DNA of 64,000 nucleotides, taken from contig BQIW01000001.1 in assembly GCA_021604105.1 (NCBI GenBank), positions 1-64,000 of the forward strand, given 5' to 3'. The notes under the pieces are model-generated. The model did no database searches, was not told where the DNA came from, and saw nothing but the letters and a program-made list of their open reading frames with translations. Below are positions 12,803 to 53,200 of this stretch, one piece after another (the first letter of the stretch is position 1; every line of letters begins with the position of its first letter). This DNA is from Nitrospirales bacterium. Its GTDB lineage: Bacteria > Nitrospirota > Nitrospiria > Nitrospirales > UBA8639. A program made the position numbers and the translations under genes.

Positions 12803-13123
12803 TTATTTCGAGCCCAGTTCGTTAAGAATCGTCTCTCGGGTCAAGGCATCAGCCACCTGACTTGAGGTCGCGAATGCTTCGCCCGCCTCCCATACCTGCT
12901 GAATCCGCCTGATTTTGTCTTCTCTTAGCTCAGGAACCTGCGCCACTCGAGTGGTATAGTCGCGTATTTCCTGTGCTAAGACCGAAAGATCAACAGGATC
13001 GGCAGAAGAAGAATGCTGGGCGGCCCTTGGTGGTCCGCTCTCCTGCGCCTGAAGGTTTTTAGCTTGGACGTGAAAAAATAGTTTGCTCAGCTCTCCACTG
13101 GGATCAAGGCCCCGTATGGTCAT
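12803..13123 (-). CDS. flgM: Anti-sigma-28 factor FlgM
   Basis: A 106-residue protein. The C-terminal half (EDKIRRIQQVWEAGEAFATS, QVADALTRETILNEL) matches the FlgM sigma-28-binding domain, and DPVDLSVLAQEI is the linker. The N-terminal half is low-complexity and likely disordered, as expected for an exported anti-sigma factor. FlgM holds FliA inactive until the hook is complete and FlgM is secreted. A sigma-28 type promoter lies about 25-50 bp upstream, so FlgM is under its own target's control. Confidence 0.93.
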   Translation of the reverse strand: MTIRGLDPSGELSKLFFHVQAKNLQAQESGPPRAAQHSSSADPVDLSVLAQEIRDYTTRVAQVPELREDKIRRIQQVWEAGEAFATSSQVADALTRETILNELGSK

Positions 13124-13147: not shown

Positions 13148-13175
13148 GTATCGGAAGCAACACCGTTAAACTTTA
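13148..13175 (-). promoter_or_regulatory. Sigma-28 (FliA) type promoter of flgM
   Basis: On the minus strand the -35 element TAAAGTTT (plus-strand 13168-13175) is followed after 12 bp by TCCGATAC (13148-13155). The enterobacterial consensus is TAAAGTTT-N11-GCCGATAA, so this differs by one base of spacing and the outer bases of the -10. It lies 24 bp before the flgM ATG. The same element with the same spacing occurs upstream of the HTH gene at 29423-29450, which supports it as the local form of the motif. Confidence 0.8.
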
Positions 13176-25578: not shown

Positions 25579-27483
25579 TTAGCGCATACCGGCAAATGTT
25601 GACACTTGCACTTCTCGCACTAAATCAGCCATATCCAAAATCAACACCACTTTGCCATCTCCGGTAATGGTGGCTCCCGCCACACACTTCACGTTTGCCA
25701 AAAATTCTCCCAACGATTTAATCACGACTTCCTCTTGTGCCCGCAGCCGGTTCACCACAACTCCAAACTGTTGTTCTCCGATCTTCACGACTACCACATA
25801 ACATTCATCATCAGTCCGGTCCCTTGGAATGTGGAAGGTTTCACCAAGATTCAGGAGCGGTAGAATTCGTTCCCGGAGGTTCAATACCGCCTGCCTATTA
25901 ATACTTTTAATTTCATCTTTGGTCACTTTAACGGCTTCGACCACGGAAGCCAGCGGTATGGCAAATGTGGCACATTCCACCTCTACCATGAGCGCTTGAA
26001 TAATGGCCACCGTCAACGGAAGCTTAATCGTCACACGACTCCCTTGACCAGGATCCGAATCTAACTCTAAGCTCCCATTCATTCGACTAATATTGGTTCG
26101 GACCACATCCATACCCACACCACGACCGGACACATCACTCACTTGGTCCGCCGTACTAAACCCTGGAAGAAAAATTAAATTCATAATTTCCCGAGGACTC
26201 ATGGCTTCCAGTTCGGCTTGAGGCACCAATCCTTTTTCGAGGGCTTTCTCAGCAATTTTGTCAACTTGTAACCCACGACCATTATCTTCGATCCGAATCA
26301 CAATACTGTTACCTTCCTGCTGGGCAGACAATCGCACATACCCTTCAGAATTTTTCCCGTGTTTTTTTCGATCAACGGCCGTTTCCAAACCATGATCCAG
26401 GCAGTTTCTCACCAGATGGACCAACGGATCGCTTAATTCATCGGCCACGGACTTGTCGACTTCGGTATCTTCCCCGACTAATTCCAGTCGCACCTGCTTA
26501 CCTAACTTACCGGCCAAATCGCGGACCAATCTTGGAAATCGTGAAAACACCTTGCGAATTGGAACCATCCGTGTTTTCATTACCGCCAATTGCAAGTCAG
26601 AGGTCACCAGGTTGAGCTGCGCCAGCGTCACATTTAATTCGCGGAGAGCTGGATTGATCTCATCTTGCTCTTCCAGACCATTCCCCAGCTTCATAAGACG
26701 ATTGCGATTCAAAACCAATTCTCCGACCAGATTCATGACATGATCTAAACGTTTGGTTTCAACTCGAACGGTCTGGTCTTCTTCCTTACCACTTGATGGC
26801 TTACCAGCCGGAGCACTCGCAGCTTGGACGGAACGGGTCGTCGCTTCTTTCATTTTGTTTAATACATCAGACAGTCCAACGGGGCATTCAGAAACCGGCG
26901 CTGGTTCCGCCTCGCCATCCATTCCTACCGGTCCTTCAACCGGTAAGGCTTCTTGAGGAAAAGGAAAAGAAGAGGTATCAGTCTGCACAACCACAGATGA
27001 AGGTGGTATCTCTGTTGGAGGTGGAGAAAGAGCGTCAGGTATTGTATTCTTCACGGTCGTTTGAGGAGGGGGTATGGACAGCATCAAATCGTCGGCGCTA
27101 TCCATCGTCAATGCCAATTTATTCACAATAACCTGGGTCTCAATATGAGAATCCTCTCCGGTATCCCGGATATCGGACTGAAGCATTTTTACTGCGTCCA
27201 CAGCTTCTAAAATGATATCGATAATGAATGGGGAAACCGATATCTCCCCCTGCCTCAACTTGTTCAATAAACTCTCAGCTTGATGGGCCACTTCAACCAA
27301 ATGGGTAAACCCCAGAAATCCGGCGGATCCTTTCATGCTGTGCATACACCGGAAAATCTCGTTAAGCAATTCAGTGTTGGACGGCTCCGCTTCCAACTTC
27401 ACAAAATGTTGGTCAAGGGCTTCCAGCATTTCAGAACTTTCGGCCAAAAAGTCGTTGAGTATTTCCTTCATTTCCTCATTCAT
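25579..27483 (-). CDS. cheA: Chemotaxis histidine kinase CheA (first)
   Basis: A 634-residue CheA. The ATG is chosen with AGGTGA upstream; a TTG one codon earlier is in frame. The P1 phosphotransfer domain has His48 in CMHSMKGSAGFLGF. A Pro/Ser-rich linker (about 110-235) replaces a recognisable P2 domain. P3 dimerisation starts near VETKRLDHVMNLVGELVLNR, the P4 kinase has HLVRNCLDHGLE, DNGRGL and GRGVGMDVVR, and P5 is CheW-like. Without P2, CheY may dock differently. It heads cheA-cheZ-cheY with the phosphatase and regulator genes just upstream. Confidence 0.96.
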   Translation of the reverse strand: MNEEMKEILNDFLAESSEMLEALDQHFVKLEAEPSNTELLNEIFRCMHSMKGSAGFLGFTHLVEVAHQAESLLNKLRQGEISVSPFIIDIILEAVDAVKMLQSDIRDTGEDSHIETQVIVNKLALTMDSADDLMLSIPPPQTTVKNTIPDALSPPPTEIPPSSVVVQTDTSSFPFPQEALPVEGPVGMDGEAEPAPVSECPVGLSDVLNKMKEATTRSVQAASAPAGKPSSGKEEDQTVRVETKRLDHVMNLVGELVLNRNRLMKLGNGLEEQDEINPALRELNVTLAQLNLVTSDLQLAVMKTRMVPIRKVFSRFPRLVRDLAGKLGKQVRLELVGEDTEVDKSVADELSDPLVHLVRNCLDHGLETAVDRKKHGKNSEGYVRLSAQQEGNSIVIRIEDNGRGLQVDKIAEKALEKGLVPQAELEAMSPREIMNLIFLPGFSTADQVSDVSGRGVGMDVVRTNISRMNGSLELDSDPGQGSRVTIKLPLTVAIIQALMVEVECATFAIPLASVVEAVKVTKDEIKSINRQAVLNLRERILPLLNLGETFHIPRDRTDDECYVVVVKIGEQQFGVVVNRLRAQEEVVIKSLGEFLANVKCVAGATITGDGKVVLILDMADLVREVQVSTFAGMR

Positions 27484-27563
27484 CAATCACCTGCTCTCAA
27501 CTCCCGGATGTTTTAGCCAGTTCCTGACCGGATAACCACACGCTGAGGGCTTGTGCATAAGCA

Positions 27564-28652: not shown

Positions 28653-29155
28653 GATGCGCTCCTTACGCCTTGGGCCCTAAAATCCCCGGCCTTTTCGGGT
28701 TTTCCCATCATTAGAATATTTTTTATCCGTGCATATTTTGTTGAACATACGTGGCATATTCGAAATTCGGTTAACTTCCCTTCGATCTTTAGCCGTCACT
28801 GGCAAAATTCCCCTGTCGGCCCAGGTTCATTACTAGAACAACATTGATCTTGCCGGAAGACCATTTTGGCCATACGCCTTTTCCAACAGCCGGAGCTACC
28901 GCGGGGTTCAACCTTGGCCAACCCAACAGATGCTATAGGGCAAATTTAATTGAACGAAAATGAGGGAAAGGAAGGGATTGAATTTTAGAAAGCAAAAGGA
29001 GAGTAGTAAACTTTAATTATTTTTCAAATTTTCGTTATATATTTAAAATGCCTTGCCCATTCCGGGGCATCTTGCCCTCAGAATATGAGCAGGTCATTCA
29101 TGTGGCTCTCGGGGGCTACCCTCTCGCGAGAGAGTCAATGGCTCCCAGCGAGAAC
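28653..29155. other. Gap with inverted repeats, no gene seen
   Basis: About 500 bp between cheY and the HTH gene. It contains a perfect 12-bp palindrome CTCTCGCGAGAG at 29121-29132, just after the HTH stop codon. A short TGCCC/GGGCA hairpin followed by TTTT on the minus strand near 29050-29075 could be a weak terminator for the HTH gene. The AT-rich stretch at 28990-29050 may include a cheY promoter. I found no ORF with family resemblance. Confidence 0.5.
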
Positions 29156-29383
29156 TTAGTTTAAACTAAACCGTTCGCGACCCCCCTGTTGAGACCCAGC
29201 ACCAACCATTACCGAATCTCCTCCAGCATTTTGGACCCAGGCTTCAATTTCTTCCCGAACGAAGCGCCAGTGTTTTCCAACTTTATGCCCTGGAAGTCGA
29301 CGTTCTCTAGCGAGCTTGTAGATTGTCGATTTTGGAACTTTCAAAAACGTCGACACTTCACTTAAGGTCAGCAAATCTTTCAT
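29156..29383 (-). CDS. Excisionase-type helix-turn-helix DNA-binding protein
   Basis: A 75-residue protein with a MerR/excisionase-like winged helix: LLTLSEVSTFLKVPKSTIYK, LARERRLPGHKVGKHWRFVR and EEIEAWV. This is the HTH_17 pattern, in which the GHKVGKHWRF wing contacts DNA. A Gly/Gln-rich tail follows. No integrase or other phage gene is nearby, so it is probably a small transcription regulator and not an excisionase. A sigma-28 type promoter lies 40-67 bp upstream, placing it in the flagellar regulon. Its targets are unknown. Confidence 0.9.
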   Translation of the reverse strand: MKDLLTLSEVSTFLKVPKSTIYKLARERRLPGHKVGKHWRFVREEIEAWVQNAGGDSVMVGAGSQQGGRERFSLN

Positions 29384-29422
29384 TGTGGCACCCTCATTAG
29401 AGTTTGATCTGTAATGTTTGTG

Positions 29423-29450
29423 GTATCGGACTGATCATAGGGAAACTTGA
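29423..29450 (-). promoter_or_regulatory. Sigma-28 (FliA) type promoter of the HTH gene
   Basis: The minus strand has TCAAGTTT (plus-strand 29443-29450), 12 bp, then TCCGATAC (29423-29430). The -10 block and the spacing are identical to those of the flgM promoter at 13148-13175; the -35 differs by one base. It is 40 bp upstream of the HTH start codon. Confidence 0.72.
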
Positions 29451-29572
29451 GACTTCTTCTTTGATAATAGGAAATTGTGGTTTCCTCACCGCCTTATCCC
29501 AGGGATTGTTCCATAGTCATTCTCTGAACCTCCTTAAACGACAAAAATGGGTTCAGAAGACCGCCCAGCCTT

Positions 29573-32536
29573 TTATCCTTGCTGTGCAATCAGGCGTTCA
29601 ATTACACCAGTCAATTGTTTGACATTCCGTTCTAACTCGATCGCCGTTGAATGCAGATAAGAAAAAGTGGCCGAAACAGCCGCAATTTCAAGTTGTGCCG
29701 CCTTCTCTCCTGCATGCGTGGCGTGGATCGCACTCAACGCACCTTTTAGTTGATGAGCGAGTCTTTGAAGCTCTTGACGATTCTCCAAGCGAATGGCTTG
29801 ATGCAGCCATTTAATCAGATCCGGAGCGGTGGCATTGAAAATGTGGAACAAGGAAAACAGCAAATCTTCATCCCCCTCCAGGGCCTGAAGGGCAAAAGAG
29901 ACGTCATAGTGTTCTCCGTCCGCCAGAACCTGAGTAGAAGGTCCTTCCTTGTGTCTGGTCCCTGAGAATCTGTTGGAAACAGCATGATTCTCCGCCCGAT
30001 CAGAATGATCATTTGTCTCTGATGAAGAAGGGTTTTCGGCAATGGGACCAAACCCTACCCATCGCCGAAGAATTCTTTTAAAGTCTCCTAAATGAACCGG
30101 CTTAAAAAGACAATCATCCATGCCATTCTCAAGGCATTGTGAACCATGCTCAGGGAGTGCATGGGCTGTAATCCCAACAATCGGAATGTGGGAAACGGGA
30201 GGAGAGGCCGAGCCATGCTGTCGATGCCAATAGGGAGCCGTATGGACAAATGCTCCAACATGTTCCAATTTCCGAATTCGTTTCGTGATGGCCAATCCAT
30301 CCATGTCGGGAAGCTCCCAGTCCATCACAATGCAATCCACAACTTTCTCTTTCAACAAGGTCAAAGCTTTGCTCCCCGTGTCCACGATGGTCACTTGACA
30401 TCCGAGGTTTCCTAACATGCCGGCCGCAACACGTTGATTCACGGGATTATCTTCCACAACCAGCACCGAAGGTCCTTCCTGAATATTGGGAAAAGATGGC
30501 TCGAAAACCTCAATAGTTTTCTGCACCATCTTTACAGGTTGTTGCTCGGTTGTTTTGGGTAAATTTGACGGTTCTGAAGGTCCTGGTTCTCCTATTACGC
30601 AGTGGAAAAATTGCTTTCGGTGTAAGGGAAGGGTAATCATCCCATCGAACCCCAAACTTCTTTCTTCATCATCATTGCGATACCAAAATGGCTTCAGACC
30701 CCAAACTTTGACGTCTCGAAACCGAGAAGAAGATCGAATTCGTTCAAACCATTCTCGAACAGCCGCTTTCTCCAGACGATCACTGAGAATAACCCCCGCA
30801 ATGGGATGGTCCGATTCGTGGAACCTTTCTAATAAGGTGTTTGCCCCTTTCATGCTGTCCACCTGCACGACCTTGACACGTAATTCTTGAAGAAGATGCG
30901 CCATCACCCACCCTGACGATTCCTGAGGGCCGATAACCCAGACCTCTTTGCCCGCAACCCATGTCGCCTCCGCGCGTGGGAAAGAAGCCGTCCGCGATGC
31001 CCGACAGGGAATGTCACACCAAAATTTCGATCCATGATTGGGTTGACTCTTCACCCCGACGGACCCGTTCATCAACTCCGCTAATTGCTTGCAAATCGCT
31101 AAGCCCAAACCGGACCCCCCAAATTTTCGACTCATGGAACTATCCGCCTGGGTAAACACCTGAAAAATTTTGTGTTGAACCTCCTCTGACATACCAATGC
31201 CAGTGTCTTGGACCGACAGTCGAATCCACAACCGAGTCTCCTCGTCCGGATCACCAGTAGGAGAATGAAGTTCATCCAGAGGACCATCACCTTCGGGACT
31301 TACAGGCTGAATCAGCGAACCACGCAACAACACCGACCCTTCCATTGTAAATTTCAAGGCATTGGAAAGGTAATTACAAAGAATTTGTCGCAAACGGTGG
31401 GGATCGCCCGACAACTCGGAGGGCACATCCGGGTCAATATAGGCAGCCAAATCCAAACCCTTCCGATGAGCCCGTTCTGAGAACAGATCGACGGCCTCTT
31501 CAAATAAAGACGTCACATTAAACCCAATATTTTCCAGGGCCAATTGACCGGACTCAAGCTTTGAAAAATCCAAAATATCATTAATGATGGTAAGCAACCC
31601 CTCGCCGGACATACGGATAATATTGACACATTCCTGTTGCTCGTGACTAAGAGATGAAGCGAGCAGGACTTCTGCCATACCAATTACTCCGTTTAAGGGA
31701 GTGCGAATTTCATGACTCATCACAGCCAAAAACGCGGCCTTGGCTCGAGTAGCAGATTCGGCCTTAATTAACGCCTGATCCAGTTCATGATTTTTCGCCT
31801 CCAGGGTATCCGCAAAGGCCGACAATTCTTCTGCAGCTCGCTTAGGTTCGGTAATATCCATGCCATACCCACGAAGTAATCCCAAATCGGCATGAGGGGC
31901 AAAGGTCCACGAATATTGTCTCCCCCCAACACTCACTTCGTAATGCATCTCTAGATGTCTTTGTGTCAAACAACGCTTAGCTAACTCCAAAAACCGATCC
32001 GGCAATGCCGTGGAAAAACCGTCCTGACCGATATGGGCTTCCTCCATCAGGCGGACCATAGCGGGATTGGCATACAGAAGTTGTCCTTCCGCATCGACTT
32101 CAATCACGGGGAATGGATTTTCCTTCGGAATGAACGATAATCGGCGGGTTTCCTCAGTCAATTTCATTTCGGAACTGAGGTCTCGAAACATCAACAGAAA
32201 TCCAGAAGCCTCAACGTCATCCACCACAATTCCCTTCAACTCTACCCAACACCATGTCCCCTGCCGCATTCGCAAACGGGTCCGGGGTACCCACAGCACT
32301 GTTTTTTCAAGGAGTAACCCCGAAAAAGGGCAGACGTCCGTGCCGTCTTCGTCACAGGAGACTAGACATTCCAAGAGGTCATGACACGAAACATTCGTAG
32401 GACAAGCGGCTCCCCACCCTAACAGGCGTGAGCCGGCTAAATTCATATGAGTGAGTGTTCCCTCTCGATCCACCAGACACACCCCGACCATTAATCCATC
32501 CCAGAGGGTCTGAAACAAGAGAGGATTGGACCACAT
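29573..32536 (-). CDS. Hybrid histidine kinase: PAS-PAS-HisKA-HATPase-REC-HPt
   Basis: A 987-residue cytoplasmic sensor kinase. Two PAS domains (about 5-125 and 135-235) are followed by a short coiled coil. The HisKA box AVMSHEIRTPLNGVIGMAEV has His275. The HATPase domain has DTGIGMSEEVQHKIFQVF and GGSGLGLAICKQL. A degenerate receiver-like segment without an acceptor Asp (about 520-620) is followed by a true receiver (SVLVVEDNPVNQRVAAGMLG, CIVMDWELPDMDG). A C-terminal HPt domain has LAHQLKGALSAIHA. This is a full phosphorelay ArcB/BarA-type protein. It is adjacent to an HD-GYP gene with 3 bp between them. Confidence 0.92.
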   Translation of the reverse strand: MWSNPLLFQTLWDGLMVGVCLVDREGTLTHMNLAGSRLLGWGAACPTNVSCHDLLECLVSCDEDGTDVCPFSGLLLEKTVLWVPRTRLRMRQGTWCWVELKGIVVDDVEASGFLLMFRDLSSEMKLTEETRRLSFIPKENPFPVIEVDAEGQLLYANPAMVRLMEEAHIGQDGFSTALPDRFLELAKRCLTQRHLEMHYEVSVGGRQYSWTFAPHADLGLLRGYGMDITEPKRAAEELSAFADTLEAKNHELDQALIKAESATRAKAAFLAVMSHEIRTPLNGVIGMAEVLLASSLSHEQQECVNIIRMSGEGLLTIINDILDFSKLESGQLALENIGFNVTSLFEEAVDLFSERAHRKGLDLAAYIDPDVPSELSGDPHRLRQILCNYLSNALKFTMEGSVLLRGSLIQPVSPEGDGPLDELHSPTGDPDEETRLWIRLSVQDTGIGMSEEVQHKIFQVFTQADSSMSRKFGGSGLGLAICKQLAELMNGSVGVKSQPNHGSKFWCDIPCRASRTASFPRAEATWVAGKEVWVIGPQESSGWVMAHLLQELRVKVVQVDSMKGANTLLERFHESDHPIAGVILSDRLEKAAVREWFERIRSSSRFRDVKVWGLKPFWYRNDDEERSLGFDGMITLPLHRKQFFHCVIGEPGPSEPSNLPKTTEQQPVKMVQKTIEVFEPSFPNIQEGPSVLVVEDNPVNQRVAAGMLGNLGCQVTIVDTGSKALTLLKEKVVDCIVMDWELPDMDGLAITKRIRKLEHVGAFVHTAPYWHRQHGSASPPVSHIPIVGITAHALPEHGSQCLENGMDDCLFKPVHLGDFKRILRRWVGFGPIAENPSSSETNDHSDRAENHAVSNRFSGTRHKEGPSTQVLADGEHYDVSFALQALEGDEDLLFSLFHIFNATAPDLIKWLHQAIRLENRQELQRLAHQLKGALSAIHATHAGEKAAQLEIAAVSATFSYLHSTAIELERNVKQLTGVIERLIAQQG

Positions 32537-32539
32537 GAG

Positions 32540-33808
32540 CTAGGAGAAAATTTCGCGAAGGTTAATAGAAGAATCTGTAGAATCAAGCACTTTCGTAATT
32601 CTTACTTTATATTTTAATTCTGAATGAGTCCCTAAATTTCTCACCTCGGGATTTTTGAGAATCTCTCCGGTGCATGTCCTCAAAATTTTCACCTGTGGTC
32701 TCACACTCACCTCAGGATTCTGCTTCACCACCACAGCGTCCTCACCCGTGGAAAGTTGAACAAGGGTGCCTACAGGATACACTCCCAACACACGAATCAT
32801 GGCTTCAACAAACCGTGTCGGAAACTTGCCCTTTTGTGCTTCTTGGTAGACACGCCGAATTGCTAAAGCCACAGGAAATGATCCCGAGACATTCCCCCCA
32901 GCGAGCAACTCATCAACGTAATCAGTGAGCCCCAACAAAGTTCCAGAGTCGGAGATCAGAGTCCCCCTTGATATGGGGGGATACCCTGAGCCATCAAGAT
33001 AGGCATGATGCTCCTGTACGATACGAACGATGTCTTCCGAAAATTCAGATTTTTTTTTAATCAGCGCTGCGCTCATATCCACATGTTGCTGCAACACCGA
33101 ATTATCAATTCCGATGCTCCCCCATCGTGCCTGAACAAGATTGAGAGGCAACCGCATATAGCCCACATCATGTAATAGTGCGGCGACAGCGATCTCCTCA
33201 AGTTGGTTCACCTCCCACTTGAGTTGGAGGCCAACTAGAATCGACAACAAGGCTGTATCAACAACATGAGAATAGAGGGTGGGATCGAACTGTCCAAGGT
33301 GCTCAATAAGCATAACCTCAGCGATCAGCGTCGGATGGGCTAACGCTTTCTCCACAAAGGCTTTGGCCGTTTTCTTGAGGGCGACATGTGGAATGACCTG
33401 GCCGGTTTTAACACCTTCGAACATGTCCTCCAATGCCGCAATCGTATCCCCCCGCAACCGTAGTAACGGTTCAAAATGACCATCATCCGGTTTTTTTTGT
33501 TTCTCTGAGGAGCATGACGCGGATGCTTGGCTAAAAGAATCTTCCTGATGAAAAGGGGTGTCCGACTCCAAATGACACTCATGCTTGTCCTCGACCGGAA
33601 AGATTTTCGTGTCGGTCCCCACATCGAGCCCCTTAGCAGTATCAATTTCGACTTCATGGATCCCGGATTGGAGCAATTGCTTCACATCGTGTGAAGACAG
33701 AAGTCGACGGTGACAAAAGAACGGCGACTTCCACCAGGAATCAAGGATTCGAACCAAATACATGCCTGCACATATCTGTGAACAGGCAAGACGCTTTCGA
33801 GTCGTCAT
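32540..33808 (-). CDS. HD-GYP domain protein, likely cyclic di-GMP phosphodiesterase
   Basis: A 422-residue protein with an N-terminal DUF3391-like region (residues 5-65) and an HD-GYP domain. The metal and active-site motifs are visible: HD at 213-214 in LLHDVGYMRLP, HH at 267-268 and DGSGYP at 272-277. The usual HDIGK lysine is replaced by Tyr. The enzyme should hydrolyse cyclic di-GMP to GMP. It precedes the hybrid kinase in transcription with 3 bp between genes, so the two probably share regulation. The window's cyclase at 8.3-9.3 kb could be its functional opposite. Confidence 0.88.
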   Translation of the reverse strand: MTTRKRLACSQICAGMYLVRILDSWWKSPFFCHRRLLSSHDVKQLLQSGIHEVEIDTAKGLDVGTDTKIFPVEDKHECHLESDTPFHQEDSFSQASASCSSEKQKKPDDGHFEPLLRLRGDTIAALEDMFEGVKTGQVIPHVALKKTAKAFVEKALAHPTLIAEVMLIEHLGQFDPTLYSHVVDTALLSILVGLQLKWEVNQLEEIAVAALLHDVGYMRLPLNLVQARWGSIGIDNSVLQQHVDMSAALIKKKSEFSEDIVRIVQEHHAYLDGSGYPPISRGTLISDSGTLLGLTDYVDELLAGGNVSGSFPVALAIRRVYQEAQKGKFPTRFVEAMIRVLGVYPVGTLVQLSTGEDAVVVKQNPEVSVRPQVKILRTCTGEILKNPEVRNLGTHSELKYKVRITKVLDSTDSSINLREIFS

Positions 33809-34095: not shown

Positions 34096-34467
34096 TTATA
34101 CCTCGGAAGACACAACCGACATTTGAGGGACTTCACCCATTGTCTGATAAATGGGTATCATTTTTGCGACATTGGCTAAATCCAACACCTGACGAACATA
34201 CGGTTGTGGATTCACCAGACTGAACGGGATTTTTTTACTTTTTAAAGTTTGGTGGGCAATCACCAAAATACCAAGGGCAGAACTATCTACAAACGATACT
34301 TGCCCGAAATCTAAGACAATCGGTAACTCTTCCTTCATTGCCTCACCTAAGCTATCTTTAAAGATTTTTCTTGTGCCAAAATCAAACCGTCCGGCCAAAT
34401 GCACGACCACGGCTTTCTCACTCTTTTCATGCGTGACATTCATAGACTCCTCCATGGTGTATGCCAA
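34096..34467 (-). CDS. STAS-domain anti-sigma factor antagonist (first)
   Basis: A 123-residue STAS protein with VVVHLAGRFDFGTRKIFKDS and the phosphorylatable serine region FVDSSALGILVIA. Two starts are possible: a TTG at 34467 with AAGGAGA upstream, or an ATG at 34443 with GGAGGA upstream; the second gives MNVTHEKSEK. Proteins of this kind are released from a partner-switching kinase when dephosphorylated by a PP2C phosphatase. Candidate partners are encoded at 49.9-52.2 kb. A 1 kb gap lies upstream. Confidence 0.9.
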   Translation of the reverse strand: MAYTMEESMNVTHEKSEKAVVVHLAGRFDFGTRKIFKDSLGEAMKEELPIVLDFGQVSFVDSSALGILVIAHQTLKSKKIPFSLVNPQPYVRQVLDLANVAKMIPIYQTMGEVPQMSVVSSEV

Positions 34468-36885: not shown

Positions 36886-37494
36886 TCAAAATAGCGTGAC
36901 ATCCGATTGCATAGGAGCATGTTGAAGCTTCCTCCTATATTGCCCTTCCTCCTGCGCGATCTCACTTGCCACGACACGGTCGAGTTTTTTCATAAGCACT
37001 TTCCCCGAATCGGTGAAATAGTACACCTTCCGAGGACAGACATCTCCAATATCCGCTTTGATAGGCGACAAACCCTCCTGTTCCAGAAAGGCGAGAGCCC
37101 AAGCGGCATTTTGGGCTCCAATATCAATGGTGCCATCATAAATCTTCCCCCCCCCAAAGACCTTTGCTTCGAGTCGCTCCTTTTTTCCACCGCATTTGAA
37201 AATATCATTCATCAGCATTTCCATGGCAAAACTTCCGTATCGTCCAGAATCCGCCCAATTATCGTGTCCTTCAGTATTAGAAGGAGCCGCCAACATGAAA
37301 TGATTCATCCCTCCCACGCCGGCAAACGGATCTCGCAAACACACCGAGATACAGGAACCCAGCACCGTATAGACGACTTTGGGCTCCCGACTCACAAAAT
37401 ATTCACCGGGGAGAATGACGGCCACTTCATAAGGAAAGCGGGTATCCTGCATGCGGCGAATATGTCCGAATTCCATCAAAGCAGTCGATGACAT
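36886..37494 (-). CDS. cheD: Receptor glutamine deamidase CheD
   Basis: A 202-residue CheD. The catalytic Cys48 and His65 are in VYTVLGSCISVCLRD and GGMNHFMLAAP. AKVFGGGKI is another landmark. It deamidates Gln residues of chemoreceptors and, in other bacteria, works with CheC. The protein ends in SDVTLF, close to the end of the cytoplasmic receptor at 48.1 kb (DNITLF). It lies between cheR and cheB. Confidence 0.95.
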   Translation of the reverse strand: MSSTALMEFGHIRRMQDTRFPYEVAVILPGEYFVSREPKVVYTVLGSCISVCLRDPFAGVGGMNHFMLAAPSNTEGHDNWADSGRYGSFAMEMLMNDIFKCGGKKERLEAKVFGGGKIYDGTIDIGAQNAAWALAFLEQEGLSPIKADIGDVCPRKVYYFTDSGKVLMKKLDRVVASEIAQEEGQYRRKLQHAPMQSDVTLF

Positions 37495-45033: not shown

Positions 45034-47139
45034 TTACGCCGCCGCAATGTGCCCAACCCGGGCTAATTTGGCTAATCCCGGTATATCCAATATCAAGGCA
45101 ACTTGCCCGTCCCCCAGAATTGTGGCTCCGGAAATCGCCTCAACCTTGCGAAAATTCTGCTCTAAACTCTTAATGACTACTTGTTGTTGCCCCGTCAGTT
45201 CATCCACTAGCACGGCCAATCGCCGACCATCGGTTTCCACAATCACCAACAAGGCCTGTGAAGGATCAGTAAACTCGGGCGTGAGGTTAAAAGCCTCATA
45301 AAGTTTAACCACCGGCACCCATTCTCCACGAAGACTGACCACCTCGCCTTTCCCCACGATCCGTTGCAACTCATTGGGTTTGGGGCGAATGGATTCGGTG
45401 ACCGCAATCAGCGGGATAATGTAGTTATCCCGACCGACCCGGACACTCATCCCATCAATGATGGCCAGCGTCAGAGGCAATTTCAGCGTGAGACGAGAGC
45501 CCTTGCCCATTGCGCTCTGAATGTCCACTGACCCGCCAAGACCTTCAATATTCCGCTTCACCACATCCATACCCACCCCTCGACCTGACACATCGGTGAT
45601 GGTCGCTGCAGTGGAAAACCCGGGGCGAAAAATCAGTTGATACACGGCCTCATCCGACAAATTGCTGCCATCGGCAATGATCCCCTTTTCTACAGCTTTT
45701 TCAATGATCTTTTCCCGGTTCAAACCTCGCCCGTCATCTTCCACAGCGATACAAATATTCCCGCCATCGTGATACGCATGAAGACGAATGGTTCCTCGTT
45801 CAGACTTGCCTTGAGCCACCCGGTCTTCGGGTAACTCCAAACCATGATCCGCCGAGTTACGAATCAGATGGGTGAGCGGATCGCCAATCGCTTCAATCAG
45901 CGTTTTATCCAATTCTGTTTCCTCGCCCGACATGACCAATTGAATCTGCTTCCCACTTTTCCCTGCGAGATCCCGAACCAACCGTGGGAATCGGTGGAAT
46001 GCACTGCCGATCGGCATCATCCGAATGGACATGACCCGTTCCTGTATCTCTCGGGTATTACGTTCCAATTGGGTAATCCGTTCCTGCAGAACCGGGAGTT
46101 GTGCGAGAGTAAATTTCTCACTCAGATCGGTGATCATCGATTGAGTAATCACCAATTCTCCGACTAGATTAATTAATTTATCGATTTTTTCTGTATCAAC
46201 CCGGATAGACGCCACTTCATTTTTTTTCAATTGCTGCTGCTTCTGAAGCGCCTTATCGACTTGTTGGGGAGACACCTTTTTCTCCTCCACCAGAATTTCG
46301 CCAAGAGGCTTTTGCTTAGCGAGACTTTCTGCGACTTGCTCCGGAGTCACCACCCCTTCTTCCACCAGAATATCCCCCACCCGTTTATAGGATTCCGGTT
46401 TTTTCGGTGCGCAATCGATGATGGTGAGCTCACTCCCATCCCGGACAAACGCAAACACCTCCTCGACCTGTGCAATAGGTGCATCCGTTTCCAATTCCAC
46501 CTTCCAACTGAGATAACATCGTTCAGGATCGAGTAAGTTCAAAGCGGGAAGACCATCGGTTCTCACATGCAGCAATTTCACCATTCCCAACTCATGCAGT
46601 TCCTTAAATAGTTGAGCCGGATCCATTCCCCGTTGAAATAATTCCGGCAAGGGGGTCCAATCAATCTGGACCCTTCGCCACGTGGCCACTTGAGGCGGAG
46701 AACCCTGGGAAGCGGTTTCAGCTATAGACCTCTGTAGTGCAGGAGCGGTCGCTCCCTTCTGACAGGCCTCCAATTCTTCTTCTAAGACGTGAATGGCGGT
46801 CTCATCGGCTGCCTCACCCCCTTGCGCCGCGTCCAAAAGACTTTTTAAACCATCCAACGCCCGTAACAACACATCGATGACATAAGGGGTTACCGGCATT
46901 TTCTCATTCCGGAGGTCATCCAGAATGTTTTCCATTTTATGAGTCAACTCGGCAATAGCGGTAAAATGAAACATCCCCGCGTTGCCTTTAATTGAATGGG
47001 CACCCCGAAAAATACGATTCAGTAAGTCCAGGTCAGTCGGACGTTGCTCTAACGCCAATAAACCGGACTCGATGGTTTCCACATGTTCCGCCGATTCAGT
47101 AAAAAATGACTCTTGAAACCGCGAGAGATCAACCGTCAT
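45034..47139 (-). CDS. cheA: Chemotaxis histidine kinase CheA (second)
   Basis: A 701-residue CheA from the ATG giving MTVDLSRFQESFFTESAEHV, with AAGGAG upstream. P1 has His48 in GAHSIKGNAGMFHF. A P2-like module lies at about 155-245. A tandem repeat of about 23 residues (VGDILVEEGVVTPEQVAESL at 254-273 and LGEILVEEKKVSPQQVDKAL at 279-298) precedes P3. P4 motifs are HLIRNSADHGLELP, DDGRGLN and GRGVGMDVVK, and P5 is CheW-like. It differs from the first CheA in P2 and the repeat, so the two kinases belong to different arrays. Confidence 0.96.
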   Translation of the reverse strand: MTVDLSRFQESFFTESAEHVETIESGLLALEQRPTDLDLLNRIFRGAHSIKGNAGMFHFTAIAELTHKMENILDDLRNEKMPVTPYVIDVLLRALDGLKSLLDAAQGGEAADETAIHVLEEELEACQKGATAPALQRSIAETASQGSPPQVATWRRVQIDWTPLPELFQRGMDPAQLFKELHELGMVKLLHVRTDGLPALNLLDPERCYLSWKVELETDAPIAQVEEVFAFVRDGSELTIIDCAPKKPESYKRVGDILVEEGVVTPEQVAESLAKQKPLGEILVEEKKVSPQQVDKALQKQQQLKKNEVASIRVDTEKIDKLINLVGELVITQSMITDLSEKFTLAQLPVLQERITQLERNTREIQERVMSIRMMPIGSAFHRFPRLVRDLAGKSGKQIQLVMSGEETELDKTLIEAIGDPLTHLIRNSADHGLELPEDRVAQGKSERGTIRLHAYHDGGNICIAVEDDGRGLNREKIIEKAVEKGIIADGSNLSDEAVYQLIFRPGFSTAATITDVSGRGVGMDVVKRNIEGLGGSVDIQSAMGKGSRLTLKLPLTLAIIDGMSVRVGRDNYIIPLIAVTESIRPKPNELQRIVGKGEVVSLRGEWVPVVKLYEAFNLTPEFTDPSQALLVIVETDGRRLAVLVDELTGQQQVVIKSLEQNFRKVEAISGATILGDGQVALILDIPGLAKLARVGHIAAA

Positions 47140-47581
47140 TGAATGAACTCCTTTTGGTAAGGAGTGAATAGTGAGGAGCGCGTGCCTCTTCTCCCTCACC
47201 GTTTCACTGTAGATTTCCTTCTTGATTCGCTCTGACTAGTGAAGCGTTATGGCTAATTTCCTCTACTTGCTTGATGGGCCCAGTGATCATCATATTGATT
47301 GGAAGGGGTTGGAATTTCATGACTCTTGAGTGAGATATCGTAGACCATGGACCAACTCGTCCAGCCATTCTTTCTCGCTCACTAAACGCTGGGAATTAGG
47401 TAGGATCTGCATTAACTCTTTTTGGGGATTGTTTATCAACCCATTCAGTTTTCTTTGCCCGCATTCCTGTGCATCTGATCAAATATCCAATATTATTCAT
47501 GTGATGAAACGCCTTTTATGAGTCTATAAGGCATCACGGCAAACACCCATTCACGCTCCACGACTTTCTCACCAACTCTTC
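47140..47581. other. 440 bp gap upstream of the second cheA, no gene seen
   Basis: Lies between cheY2 and cheA2. The only open frames are short and without family resemblance. No consensus promoter was found; a weak AT-rich stretch lies at 47330-47420. Confidence 0.45.
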
Positions 47582-47953
47582 TCAACCTGGTAGAACTTTC
47601 TTAATCGTGGCTAACATTTGTTCTGGATTAAACGGTTTCACGACCCACCCCGTCGCTCCGGCGCTTTGCCCTTCTTTCTTTTTGTCATCAGATGATTCAG
47701 TGGTTAACATGAGAATCGGGGTGAACTTATGGGCGGCCATGCCCCGCACGGCCTTAATCAGAGAAATCCCATCCATGTTCGGCATATTCAGATCCGTAAT
47801 CACCAAATTTGGCTTCGCCCCTCCATTGAGTTTATCCACGGCTTCTTTTCCATCTCCAGCCTCGACCACTTCATAGCCGGCACCAGTCAGCGTAAAGCTC
47901 ACCATTTGACGCATCGAGACGGAATCGTCCACGACTAAAACTGTCTTGCCCAT
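47582..47953 (-). CDS. cheY: Single-domain response regulator CheY (second)
   Basis: A 123-residue receiver with TVLVVDDSVSMRQMVSFTLT, phospho-acceptor Asp54 in VITDLNMPNMDG, LTTES and VVKPFNPEQML. It resembles the CheY that accompanies CheA in second chemosensory sets of delta-type bacteria and is less like the rotor-binding CheY at 28.3 kb. It may act as a phosphate sink or a regulator of the partner-switching module nearby (inference). Confidence 0.92.
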   Translation of the reverse strand: MGKTVLVVDDSVSMRQMVSFTLTGAGYEVVEAGDGKEAVDKLNGGAKPNLVITDLNMPNMDGISLIKAVRGMAAHKFTPILMLTTESSDDKKKEGQSAGATGWVVKPFNPEQMLATIKKVLPG

Positions 47954-48110
47954 AACTTTACCTCACTTTGATTCTGTGAATTTCTCAGTTGACCCTGTAC
48001 AATCAGATTTGACTTGCGACCTCCTCACAAATTTTTTCTTAAAGGAGTAAAGATGAGACGTAAGGGAGAAGAAATTCACCTTCACACATGTCCCTTCCTC
48101 CTTCACCTCT

Positions 48111-49247
48111 TCAGAATAACGTGATGTTATCTCCTTCATCCGAGCCGGTTCCGATCATCACCGTCCCTTGACCGGAACGCGCAGACTGCATCGTGAGTCG
48201 TTCAGACTCCATGGTGTAGGTGTGCTCGAGATTCCGGATTTCTTCGAGCACCTTCGGCATCATGTCTAGCCCGTCGGTATCGTCGGCAACCGCTTGGAGC
48301 GGCGCATGGATTCTCTCCAATGGCTGGTAGACATGCTCCAGCTTTTGACGGGTGATATCTTGAAATTGCATGGACATCACAATTTGGCCGATATCCTTGC
48401 CCAGTTCTTTGGTTCGCCCCGAATTGTGTCCAACGCTCTTTTTTAAGGTTTCATTTTTTTGACCCATGATCTTAATCATCTCCAGAACCTGGTTCTGAGC
48501 TTCTACCGTTTCCGATAAGTCTAAAGACGCCAACACCTGGAGTTCCGACATGGCCGATTCGGTTGTACCTTTGACCGTCGTCGCAAGAGTACGGATTTGT
48601 TCTGAAGCCTGCGCGGACCGATTCGCCAATTTCGTGACTTCGTCCGCCACTACAGCAAACCCCCGGCCATGCTCTCCTGCCCGAGCGGCTTCAATGGCCG
48701 CATTGAGTGCTAAGAGTCGTGTTTGATCGGCAATGAATTCGACTTCCTCCACTACCTCTGAAATTCGAGAGGTGGTTTCCAAGGCCTGCTCCATCACGTT
48801 CACTGTTGCAAGGGTCACCGTGGTTGTCTGGGTGACTTGTTTGACGAACATTTCTATGGTCTTTTGTGTGTCATGAAGGATCCGGTCGACCGTGTAGTCA
48901 TCCTTCCCGCCATGCCCCTCTGCCATAAGTAACAACGCTTCAGTTTCCTCCACCTGCTCTCTGGCATTTCGTGAAATTGCCTGAAAGCGTTGAATCAGGC
49001 CATCGGCCGCTTGTCCCGTTTCTTGAATGACCGCCTTGATCTGTCCAACAAAAACCGGAAATACCGGCGCCAGACACTGGCAAAATGCCTTCCAGTTCTC
49101 CAACCAACATCGCTGAGCCTTAATGGCTTCCTGTAGTTGCTTTTCCAGCCGATGGATGTGCATCTGCCTACTCCTGGCGCCCAAGGCATATCCCATCCCT
49201 ATACCCGCCACCACGATACCTATCCATATCATCCAATCACCGTTCAC
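48111..49247 (-). CDS. Membrane-anchored cytoplasmic methyl-accepting protein
   Basis: A 378-residue receptor-like protein. A single N-terminal membrane helix ([20 protein letters not shown], residues 5-24) leads straight into a coiled coil without periplasmic domain or HAMP. The signalling tip is [20 protein letters not shown]. The signalling region is short and the C-terminus is DEGDNITLF. It presumably senses an internal or membrane state. It lies in the cheY-receptor-STAS-kinase-phosphatase group, so it may feed partner switching and not the rotor. Confidence 0.9.
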
Positions 49248-49305
49248 ACGTCACCTCATTCTTGGATCTCGATGAATATCTACTTCGTTAGCAATTGGTC
49301 CTGTG

Positions 49306-49602
49306 TTACGACTCCTGGGTCGGGAGAAACTGTGCAAATCCAATTTGCTCAAACTTGTCCCGGATACGACTGGAATACCCCTGCAGGGTGACCCGCCCGG
49401 AACGGGTCGCCGCTACCAACAGCTGGACACAAGAAGAATCCATATAGTTCACGGCCCCTAAATCAATCCGGAGAGGCCCTTCCTGTTGATGTAAGGACAT
49501 TAAATCGGCATGAAATTGTGCCGCCTCAAAAATGGTGAGATCGCCTAGTGGCCTGAGAACGGCGTCCTCAGGATTCAATGACGTGACTTGGCATTCTTCC
49601 AT
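49306..49602 (-). CDS. STAS-domain anti-sigma factor antagonist (second)
   Basis: A 98-residue STAS protein. VLRPLGDLTIFEAAQFHADL and IDLGAVNYMDSSCVQLLVAA include the phosphorylatable serine. The helix after DSS is MlaB/SpoIIAA-like. It sits between the cytoplasmic receptor and the receiver-HATPase gene, the natural substrate position for kinase and phosphatase. Confidence 0.9.
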   Translation of the reverse strand: MEECQVTSLNPEDAVLRPLGDLTIFEAAQFHADLMSLHQQEGPLRIDLGAVNYMDSSCVQLLVAATRSGRVTLQGYSSRIRDKFEQIGFAQFLPTQES

Positions 49603-49869
49603 AGTACCCTTTCATCTTTCGTAGGAGAAAAACGTGAACATTCCAACAACCGTTTCTGGCTGGCCTGACGCGTCCATTCCCAGGTAGTGTCCTTAAACAT
49701 GTCAATAAAAAAACAGGAGACAACGAAACCTTTCGGAGTCCATTGGACCTTACTTTAGATGGACGCAATTTTTCCTTGGTGTACCCTTAACAGTGAGGGG
49801 TGAAGGGTCTCGGGCCACGTTTCCAATTACTGGCATCGTCACTTCTCCTCATTCTTAACGCTTTCCCAC

Positions 49870-50841
49870 TCACGCCCGATCGGATTGGTGAGCGGCCATA
49901 GGGATTTCAGCTGTCATACCGCTCTCTTCTTTATCGATCATTGAGTCAGTCTTGATGACGCACACGACCTGATTGCCTTTCCCTCGATATTCGACTCTGG
50001 AGAAACTTAAGGCCTTGGCCATCGCAATACCTCGTCCATGGCTTTCCAAGATTCGATCCGGGTTGATCTGCTCATACTTCCGCCAGTCGAAACCTGATCC
50101 TTGGTCGGTTATGGTTACCTGGATACTATCCACACACCGTTCAAACAACACGTCGACTACCTTATGGATATACTCAGGTAGTCTCGCCCGATGTTGAATT
50201 TCTTCCTCCCACCCTCCACTCTTCTGGAGGGCGGTTTTTTCATCGAATCCGATTCCCAAATTTCCATGTTCCACCCCATTGGCCAACAATTCATTCAATC
50301 CGAACACGACTTTTTCTGAATTTGGACAAGCTCGCCCTAACAAGAATGCCAGGTCATACGCCTCTTCCATGGTTCGAACGTGAAAACGGCCGTGCTGCAA
50401 TAATTCAATAATCTGAGATTGCTGGTTAAGGTTTCGGAATATCCGTCTCCATTTCGATCCCTCTTCAACCGCGGCATTCACAATCCGCAATAACAACTGC
50501 CGGTCAAAAGGCTTGACCAGATAAAAAAAGACTCCCGCTTCAATACCGTCACCGATTTCTTTCGGCGATCCTGCTGCGGTTTGCATCACAACCGGAAGCC
50601 ATCGAAGGCGTTCATCAGCTTTCAGATACCCCAAAAGGTCAAGACCATTCATCCCCGGCATCATTCGATCCAACACCATGGCATGAAAATCTTGTCCTTC
50701 CTTTCGTAAGAACGCTAAGGCCTCTTCCCCATTATGTGCCTGAACAAGTTCATAGGGTTCATCCTTAAGACATTCGACAAGAACTTCCAGGTTTAGCTCA
50801 TCGTCGTCAACCAACATGATACGAGGGTAAGGGTTTTTCAT
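49870..50841 (-). CDS. Receiver-HATPase (RsbW/SpoIIAB-like) kinase
   Basis: A 323-residue protein from the ATG giving MKNPYPRIMLVDDDELNLEV; the frame extends 90 bp further without family resemblance. The receiver (5-125) has an acceptor Asp in MVLDRMMPGMNG. The C-terminal domain is HATPase_c_2-like with the N-box FGLNELLANGVEHGN, the G1 box DQGSGFDW and SHGRGIAMAKAL. This fold phosphorylates STAS serines and can bind sigma factors. Being fused to a receiver, it could be switched by a histidine kinase or CheA. Confidence 0.9.
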   Translation of the reverse strand: MKNPYPRIMLVDDDELNLEVLVECLKDEPYELVQAHNGEEALAFLRKEGQDFHAMVLDRMMPGMNGLDLLGYLKADERLRWLPVVMQTAAGSPKEIGDGIEAGVFFYLVKPFDRQLLLRIVNAAVEEGSKWRRIFRNLNQQSQIIELLQHGRFHVRTMEEAYDLAFLLGRACPNSEKVVFGLNELLANGVEHGNLGIGFDEKTALQKSGGWEEEIQHRARLPEYIHKVVDVLFERCVDSIQVTITDQGSGFDWRKYEQINPDRILESHGRGIAMAKALSFSRVEYRGKGNQVVCVIKTDSMIDKEESGMTAEIPMAAHQSDRA

Positions 50842-50971
50842 ACATGCCAACCTGACAACGACCAATCGTGAGGGGTCAAATCTGAAACAGAAGGGGTAAG
50901 CATAAGGGGTCAATAAGGAAGATACACCCAACTCCCGTCACCTGACGTTTCATTCCTTACGTCCTGCTCTC

Positions 50972-52195
50972 TCACCCACAAAACTCCACTCCGAGTAAGG
51001 CGACGTCATCCTCAAATCCACTATGGGCATTCCATGTCCGGCTCTGGTCGATAATACGGGACAATCCCGATCGCATCGATTGACTGGAGACTTCCTCAAG
51101 TGCTTGCTGAAGTCTTGTTCTCCCCCAAATCTCTTCCTGAAGATTCATCACCTCATAAATCCCATCGCTAAAAAGGTACAACCGATCACCGGGATTTACT
51201 CTGATGAAATCCGTCCCATACTCCTCGTCAGGCGAAAAGCCAATAGGCCAGGATTCATGGCCCAACACCATTGAAGACCGATCCTTTTTCACAACAATTG
51301 AACCGGGGTGTCCCGCAGTCGCATATCGAAGAAGGCGCGTGGAGCATTGCCATACCCCAACCCAGATCGTGAAATACTCCCCCTCATCGCTCATGGGATA
51401 TAGTTGGTTCAGACTCGTCAGGATCTGGCCTGGATCGTACGAGGGAAACATTTGTTGGATGTGTTCTCCCTTAAAAAAGAGAGATAACGACACGGCACGT
51501 AACGCAGGCCCAATCCCATGTCCTGACATGTCCAACACCATGAGACCGAGATGGTCGTTTCCCCATCGCGCAACCTGAAAAAAATCCCCTCCCAATTGCG
51601 AGGACGGCAAAAATTCCCAGTCGACCCGCACTTCGGGAATCACTTCCCCCGCCCGGGGAAGCAGACCTCGCACAAAGGTTGAAGCCGAGCGGAGCTCAGA
51701 ATGTAATTCCTCCTGCTTTTGTGATAACAAACGATTGGACTCTTCCACATCCAGCATTAACTGGCGCGCTCGTAGGCCCGCGCACACTCTAGCGACAATT
51801 TCATGATCGGAAGCGCTCTTGGATAAGAAATCATCCGCCCCCCGGCTGAGCCCTTCGGCAATTTGCGTCGGGTGGTCCAATGCCGTCATGAGAATAAAAT
51901 GGATCGTGCGATAGCGCTCATCTTGTTTAATCGCTTCACAAAGTCCAGGACCATCCAGACGGGGCATCACCCAATCCGACAGGATGAGATCCACCGGTTC
52001 CTGATCAAGAATGGCTAGAGCTTCTTCTCCATTATTAGCCTCCAATAATCGATACGGCAGTTTGGCCAAACGCTTCTTGGCGACCATCCGAACAACTATT
52101 TCATCATCCACAAGGAGAATAGTATAAATAGGATCGTTGGTCCGCCCTTTCACATCCAAGTTTTTTTCCATCGTCATCGGCTTCATTGAACCCAC
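50972..52195 (-). CDS. Receiver-PP2C (SpoIIE/RsbU-like) serine phosphatase
   Basis: A 407-residue protein. The N-terminus may begin with the GTG at 52195 or the ATG three codons later. The receiver (about 25-145) has Asp in LILSDWVMPRLDGPG. The PP2C-type domain (about 185-405) shows metal-binding Asp residues in SQLGGDFFQV, VLDMSGHGIGPALRA, LFSDGIYEVMN and FEDDVALLGVEF. It should dephosphorylate a STAS protein, opposing the receiver-HATPase kinase encoded 130 bp further on. Confidence 0.92.
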   Translation of the reverse strand: MGSMKPMTMEKNLDVKGRTNDPIYTILLVDDEIVVRMVAKKRLAKLPYRLLEANNGEEALAILDQEPVDLILSDWVMPRLDGPGLCEAIKQDERYRTIHFILMTALDHPTQIAEGLSRGADDFLSKSASDHEIVARVCAGLRARQLMLDVEESNRLLSQKQEELHSELRSASTFVRGLLPRAGEVIPEVRVDWEFLPSSQLGGDFFQVARWGNDHLGLMVLDMSGHGIGPALRAVSLSLFFKGEHIQQMFPSYDPGQILTSLNQLYPMSDEGEYFTIWVGVWQCSTRLLRYATAGHPGSIVVKKDRSSMVLGHESWPIGFSPDEEYGTDFIRVNPGDRLYLFSDGIYEVMNLQEEIWGRTRLQQALEEVSSQSMRSGLSRIIDQSRTWNAHSGFEDDVALLGVEFCG

Positions 52196-52405
52196 AGAGA
52201 TATTTGGTGATTACGGAACAAGGGAAAATTGAGGAGTCAGTTGATAGAAAAAAGATTTTCCTCGCCTTACTGACCGGCCTCACCCTTCACACTAGGAATA
52301 TGGGTCATAAACCAGAGAAAGATGTCCGATAGGCAATGCAGGCATGACGGAAAAATCTTTACCGCCTTATGCCTTACTCCTCACGCCTGACCCCCACACG
52401 CATTT

Positions 52406-53200
52406 CTATGGACCGAGCCGGGTATGAAGAAGGGCCTTCAGACGAATCATGGCTTGTGCATGTAACTGACAAATTCGGGATTCCGTGACGTGCAACACGA
52501 CTCCAATCTCTTTCATGGTCAACTCTTCAAAATAATAGAGGGTCAGCACCAGCCGTTGCCGTTCCGGCAATCGCTCAATGGCATCGACCAACGCATGGCG
52601 GGCATCCTCCGACACCAGGGTCTCCAACGGCGAGGGTTGGTCTCGATCCGCCAGCGCATCCAAGATGGGATGGGAGTCTTCATCATTGGTGCCCAAATCA
52701 TCCAAACTTAACACGACGGCTCCTTTGGCCTGCAGGAGAGTCTCGTCCACCTCTTGAGCTTCCATGCCTAAGGATTCTGCGAGCTCTTCCTCCGTCGGCG
52801 GCCGCCCTTTTCGTTTCGTCCATTCATTGGCCGCATGCTGAATTTTCCCGATACGTTCCCGAAGAGACCGCGGCACCCAGTCCATCGCCCGAATTTCATC
52901 CAGCATCGCTCCACGAATACGGAACTCGGCATAGGTGCGAAATTTAATTTCCCGTGAGGGATCGAATTTCGTCAGGGCGTCCAAAAGCCCGACCATTCCC
53001 GCACTCATGAGATCTTCCACATTGAGCCCACTCGACGCTCGCATGGCCATTCGCATGGCCATGTATTTAATCACCGGCAAAAACTCCTGAACCAACGTCT
53101 CACGTTCCTGGGTGGAAAGCGAAAGTTTCGTCGGAATGGACGATGCCGGTTTCTCCGAAACCGGTCTCTCTGAAACCGTTGTTACCGCGCCACGTTTCAT
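52406..53200 (-). CDS. fliA: Flagellar sigma factor FliA (sigma-28)
   Basis: A 264-residue sigma factor. Region 2 has VEDLMSAGMVGLLDALTKFD and RTYAEFRIRGAMLDEIRAMD, region 3 has RKGRPPTEEELAESLGM, and region 4 has RLPERQRLVLTLYYFEELTM. The FliA-specific WVPRSLRERI is present. It directs late flagellar and chemotaxis transcription and is held by FlgM. It follows flhG by 3 bp, at the end of the fliL-fliA cluster. Its promoters are predicted at flgM and the HTH gene. Confidence 0.97.
   Translation of the reverse strand: MKRGAVTTVSERPVSEKPASSIPTKLSLSTQERETLVQEFLPVIKYMAMRMAMRASSGLNVEDLMSAGMVGLLDALTKFDPSREIKFRTYAEFRIRGAMLDEIRAMDWVPRSLRERIGKIQHAANEWTKRKGRPPTEEELAESLGMEAQEVDETLLQAKGAVVLSLDDLGTNDEDSHPILDALADRDQPSPLETLVSEDARHALVDAIERLPERQRLVLTLYYFEELTMKEIGVVLHVTESRICQLHAQAMIRLKALLHTRLGP

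Follow-up and report, generated by a model that had tools for sequence, protein, structure and literature searches.

A split receiver-kinase and receiver-phosphatase partner switch behind fliA in Nitrospirales, with possible feedback on FliA

Gene content of the locus

The window, by which we mean the whole analysed stretch of 64,000 nucleotides (positions 1 to 64,000 of contig BQIW01000001.1, Nitrospirales assembly GCA_021604105.1), carries on its minus strand the gene of the sigma factor FliA and, in a row behind it, genes for a phosphatase, a kinase, a STAS protein, a receptor-like protein, CheY and CheA; a flgM gene lies elsewhere in the window.

52406-53200, minus strand: FliA (sigma-28; FliA_WhiG 264.6 bits against a cut-off of 189.6, 7.5e-79)
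50972-52195, minus strand: receiver-PP2C (SpoIIE) phosphatase (Response_reg 1.5e-22, SpoIIE 1.3e-34)
49870-50931, minus strand: receiver-HATPase_c_2 serine kinase, LvrC-like (Response_reg 1.8e-22, HATPase_c_2 1.2e-07)
49306-49602, minus strand: STAS1, of the anti-anti-sigma type (STAS_2 1.5e-12; predicted phosphorylation site Ser56)
48111-49247, minus strand: membrane-anchored MCP-signal protein (MCPsignal 2.8e-27; C-terminus NITLF)
47582-47953, minus strand: CheY (Response_reg 1.7e-26)
45034-47199, minus strand: CheA (Hpt, dimerisation, HATPase and CheW domains)
12803-13123, minus strand: FlgM, divergent, candidate partner of STAS1 (PF04316 26.3 bits, cut-off 25)

The row that a sequence-only reading had described after fliA (CheY, a membrane-anchored receptor, a STAS protein with a DSS motif, receiver-HATPase_c_2 and receiver-PP2C) was recovered with every member in place, and domain profiles agree with that reading in assigning the kinase and the phosphatase to different proteins, both of which carry a receiver. 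FlgM is a weak match, whose TIGR03824 score of 29.1 bits stays under the cut-off of 40.75 and which is missing at E 1e-5. The MCP-signal protein has, as judged by eye, a single N-terminal hydrophobic segment and no periplasmic domain. Its homologues and those of CheD (36886-37494) carry a C-terminal [IV]TLF in 14/16 and 9/9 cases, respectively, and 19 of 21 MCPs end in FFEEF.

Catalytic residues and identity of the kinase

The kinase gene is listed with a TTG start, while its homologues favour an ATG at 50841 as the likely start. The N, G1 and G2 boxes of the protein are intact and conserved, its HATPase_c_2 match lies above the cut-off, and alignment with relatives shows that its receiver has kept every phosphorylation residue. 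Likewise, the metal-binding acids of the PP2C domain (GGD, DMSGHG, SDG, DD) are conserved in the phosphatase, and D55-S56-S57 of STAS1, the DSS motif, is intact and conserved in relatives. We consider it very likely that kinase, phosphatase and STAS substrate form the biochemical core of a switch. The earlier proposal that both receivers could take up phosphate fits the residues in the window, where the phosphatase receiver is intact too (DD/D/T/K), but sits poorly with three congeners, in which this receiver is degenerate and has lost metal-binding acids (DN, NN, NN).

An AlphaFold model of the kinase reached a pLDDT of 38 from the single sequence and of 82 with alignment A2. The model retrieved LvrC of Leptospira (PDB 9qih) at rank 1 in Foldseek (E 1.1e-15), with a TM score of 0.40 and an rmsd of 23 that probably reflect differing domain placement. 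A profile of the kinase matched LvrC at E 1.4e-35 over residues 5-302, thus spanning both the receiver and the HATPase domain. RsbW (6m36) was a profile hit at E 0.003. The top VIA-align matches were to the receiver domain only and are uninformative for the HATPase half, and further weak HATPase_c_2 matches exist elsewhere in the genome. LvrC is a Rec-Bergerat protein that was proposed in 2026 to be a receiver-regulated anti-sigma factor, with its sigma partner reported as unknown (PMC13269768).

Comparison with known switches

The module looks like a known type of switch in split form. In the HptB-HsbR-HsbA system of Pseudomonas aeruginosa, in which HsbA binds FlgM and HsbR binds RpoS (PMC5085249, PMC6482189), receiver, PP2C and HATPase activities likewise act on a STAS protein with a conserved phospho-serine (here the predicted site in DSS 55-57) and are linked to flagella. 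Different from HsbR, however, which combines receiver, PP2C and kinase in one chain, the activities are here divided between two chains that each have a receiver, and the module genes of the window include no separate Hpt gene. With LvrC (PDB 9qih, SenB) the kinase shares the combination of receiver and Bergerat HATPase in one chain, the full-length profile match and likeness in the stretch behind the EHG motif; it differs in sequence (about 21% identity) and in that its gene stands behind fliA together with genes for a receiver-PP2C and a STAS protein. The RsbW/RsbV/RsbU(RsbY) and RbaW/RbaV/RbaY systems resemble the module in having kinase, STAS protein and PP2C on separate proteins, and RbaY is a receiver-PP2C as well, whereas a HATPase is the only domain described for RbaW and the kinase here has a receiver in addition. 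SiaABCD of P. aeruginosa likewise divides PP2C, kinase and a STAS-type protein between chains, with SiaA and SiaB compared by description; there a c-di-GMP enzyme is linked to the switch, whereas no diguanylate cyclase gene lies within 47582-53200. We found no literature on this module in Nitrospira.

Conservation and co-inheritance with flagella

In relatives of the same family with covering contigs the order FlhB-FlhA-FlhF-FlhG-FliA-receiver-PP2C-receiver-HATPase-STAS1-MCP-CheY-CheA is kept, as the synteny comparison suggested in the sequence-only reading brought out. A chance neighbourhood is thereby ruled out. Of the genomes searched in the family, 11 have contigs that span the region, counting the window's own, and in all 11 the fliA, receiver-PP2C and receiver-HATPase genes follow one another; receiver-PP2C and receiver-HATPase were read behind fliA in L003, L004, L005, G369, G253, G191, G321, G231, G243, G303, G137, G206 and G379. 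In G206 a stretch with similarity to a histidine kinase also intervenes between fliA and receiver-PP2C. STAS1, receptor, CheY and CheA come next as far as the contigs extend.

The kinase is inherited together with FliA and FlgM: all 14 kinase-bearing genomes of the family have both and all 15 kinase-free genomes lack both (Fisher 1.3e-08, a value behind which stand related genomes and few independent losses). In G125, which belongs to the 14, the sole FliA-family factor is of a second kind and is not adjoined by the kinase. In a set of 70 genomes, which was drawn from the search list and is hence non-random, 48 have both FliA and the kinase, 2 FliA only, 2 the kinase profile only and 18 neither. 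The module was thus not found mainly in genomes without flagella, the outcome that the sequence-only reading had named as refuting it; its association with flagella is strict. Together the parts very likely make up a partner switch under two-component control that is reserved for flagella and chemotaxis.

The window's genome also encodes a second sigma factor of the FliA/WhiG family (C23:50673-51329), by eye downstream of LptF/LptG-like genes, and a second FlgM (C2:15147-15308). Both FliA/FlgM pairs recur in almost every motile genome of the family.

Sigma-28-type promoter-like elements

The upstream regions of flagellin genes and flgM share, at the level of the order, the motif T.AAGT-N14/15-CCGA or one close to it. 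Elements of this type precede STAS1 and flgM in the window.

49730-49757, minus strand: sigma-28-type promoter-like element TAAAGT-N15-CCGAAAG, 155 nt before STAS1, in a block conserved in congeners
13148-13175, minus strand: sigma-28-type element TAAAGT-N15-CCGATAC before flgM, conserved at -52 in seven genomes

In 17 of 17 genomes, drawn from two families, the 300 nt before STAS1 contain the motif with one mismatch or none (14 exact). In its relaxed form the motif lacks full specificity, as it is also present in 28 of 210 control upstream regions from 15 gene families and precedes CheY28 in 9/18, receiver-PP2C in 6/18 and CheR in 5/14 cases. The difference between STAS1 and the controls is also clear with the E. 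coli consensus (p 6e-08), and in both comparisons the species are not independent. Across genomes no consistent FliA-type element was seen before the kinase or phosphatase genes. The exact motif has three sites in the window (flgM, STAS1 and a 75-residue HTH gene) where about one is expected by chance. The E. coli consensus, run over the full window, hit 17 sites where shuffled sequence yielded 11.8; this alone is not significant, and the lineage motif and a comparison across genomes were required. A general search of the region for promoters and terminators returned nothing above shuffles.

Arrangement in a second family

In a second family the flagellar cluster contains fliA without the module. 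STAS1 there follows MotA and MotB and precedes receptor, CheY, CheA and CheW, and a paralogous STAS-STAS-receiver-PP2C-receiver-HATPase set follows CheR-CheD-CheB in most of the loci read. Since STAS1 has stayed beside receptor-CheY-CheA even though the module is not adjacent to fliA, adjacency to fliA is specific to the window's family and the link to chemosensing is the wider one. In one locus of the second family (L118) a gene for a 140-residue Hpt protein lies between the phosphatase and the kinase of the paralogous set. This STAS-STAS-receiver-PP2C-Hpt-receiver-HATPase set matches HptB-HsbR-HsbA part for part and is a split version of that system, which strengthens the likeness to HsbR and HsbA that had been noted from the window alone.

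Source of the phosphate

But what would phosphorylate the receivers? We expect the main input to enter through the receiver of the kinase, that of the phosphatase being optional. Seven relatives (G137, G243, G379, G381, G125, G153, G333) carry a histidine kinase gene next to that of the receiver-HATPase; in other genera of the family it stands between receiver-HATPase and STAS1. Close matches to it were confined to these seven (44-100% identity to the query), and a search with controls found best matches of only 37-40% in the window's genome, G253, G303 and G271. A similar histidine kinase, receiver-HATPase and receiver-PAS-PP2C lie in a row in the Rhodocyclaceae loci L006, L008 and L009. The window encodes two CheA proteins (25579-27486 and 45034-47199) and therefore probably two chemosensory systems.

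The sequence-only reading had named CheA or a hybrid kinase as possible donors; with CheA, chemosensory activity would set kinase and phosphatase jointly through both receivers. The presence of a cheA gene farther down this cluster and the lack of a close homologue of the dedicated histidine kinase in the window's genome speak for such an input. We nevertheless hold it to be improbable, as the dedicated histidine kinase sits beside receiver-HATPase in the seven relatives and in Rhodocyclaceae, the set of the second family contains an Hpt gene of its own, three congeners have a degenerate PP2C receiver, and the window's genome holds many other histidine kinases.

Output of the switch

We favour a split switch of the HptB-HsbR-HsbA type inside the flagellar and chemosensory regulon whose output is feedback on FliA, and assign to this reading a probability of about 0.45. 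The LvrC-like Rec-Bergerat kinase would phosphorylate STAS1 at Ser56 and the receiver-PP2C would take the phosphate off again. Unphosphorylated STAS1 might then free FliA from inhibition by the receiver-HATPase itself, in the way that RsbW or HsbR bind sigma factors, or alternatively from inhibition by FlgM, as HsbA does. The kinase and phosphatase genes come after fliA, and STAS1 would head a FliA-dependent receptor-CheY-CheA unit. The case is built on the parts, their intact catalytic residues, gene order, co-inheritance with flagella and promoter-like elements, from which we infer the biochemical steps and the target. The coupling to FlgM/FliA that had been suggested is plausible. The narrower proposal that the LvrC-type protein serves as a receiver-controlled anti-sigma factor for FliA, beside FlgM, we regard as unlikely; if true, FliA would have two inhibitors, and FliA-dependent STAS1 would close a positive feedback loop.

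Against feedback on FliA it must be said that a sigma-28 promoter before STAS1 is to be expected of any chemotaxis operon. Chemosensing may moreover be the real target, because in the second family the sets lie away from fliA and STAS1 keeps its place at receptor-CheY-CheA. STAS1 might feed into the chemosensory array, with its state of phosphorylation altering the adjacent receptor-like protein and so tuning CheA, and FliA would only drive the operon. In both families STAS1, MCP, CheY and CheA form one group, also in genomes where kinase, phosphatase and fliA have another location, the adjacent receptor appears to lack a periplasmic domain, and a path from REC-PP2C-kinase through STAS to a chemoreceptor has been predicted for Campylobacterota (PMC9239204). 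However, kinase and phosphatase stand directly behind fliA in the window's family, and we found no experimental precedent in the literature. We rate this array input as a tentative explanation with an appreciable chance of being right.

An LvrC relative stands directly behind fliA with a phosphatase and a STAS partner across a bacterial family, which places the LvrC-type switch with flagella and chemotaxis in Nitrospirales and singles out one sigma factor, one STAS protein and one receptor as candidates for an LvrC-like switch. For comparison, Nitrospirales offer two paralogous arrangements and the loss of a dedicated histidine kinase.

The STAS2 locus and cyclic di-GMP

The second STAS gene that had been placed at 34.1 kb is present.

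34096-34467, minus strand: STAS2 (STAS 1.7e-21; predicted phosphorylation site Ser62)
34532-34506: weaker sigma-28-like element before STAS2, conserved in congeners
32540-33808, minus strand: DUF3391-HD-GYP protein downstream of STAS2, candidate STAS2 effector (HD_5 7.9e-14, DUF3391 7e-13)
29573-32536, minus strand: hybrid histidine kinase, candidate phosphate donor (HisKA, HATPase_c, receivers and Hpt)

STAS2, whose neighbours are an HD-GYP protein and a hybrid kinase, does not obviously belong to the module, and in G137, G206 and G381 its locus has a receiver-HATPase of its own between the hybrid kinase and an HTH gene; this second receiver-HATPase is absent from the window (28653-29572). 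The switch could also control cyclic di-GMP, STAS1 or STAS2 binding a c-di-GMP enzyme, for which the HD-GYP protein is a candidate. In the window, as in g1 and g5 relatives, the DUF3391-HD-GYP gene comes after STAS2, and there is precedent in SiaC, thought to bind SiaD, and HsbA, thought likewise to bind HsbD (PMC7647112, PMC5085249). Yet the linkage holds for STAS2 and not for STAS1, and no HD-GYP gene was seen at the G381 locus, so that we give this output a low chance.

The 75-residue HTH_17 protein (29156-29383) has a flagellin-type element at 29450-29423, about 67 nt upstream, which is kept in eight other genomes of the family.
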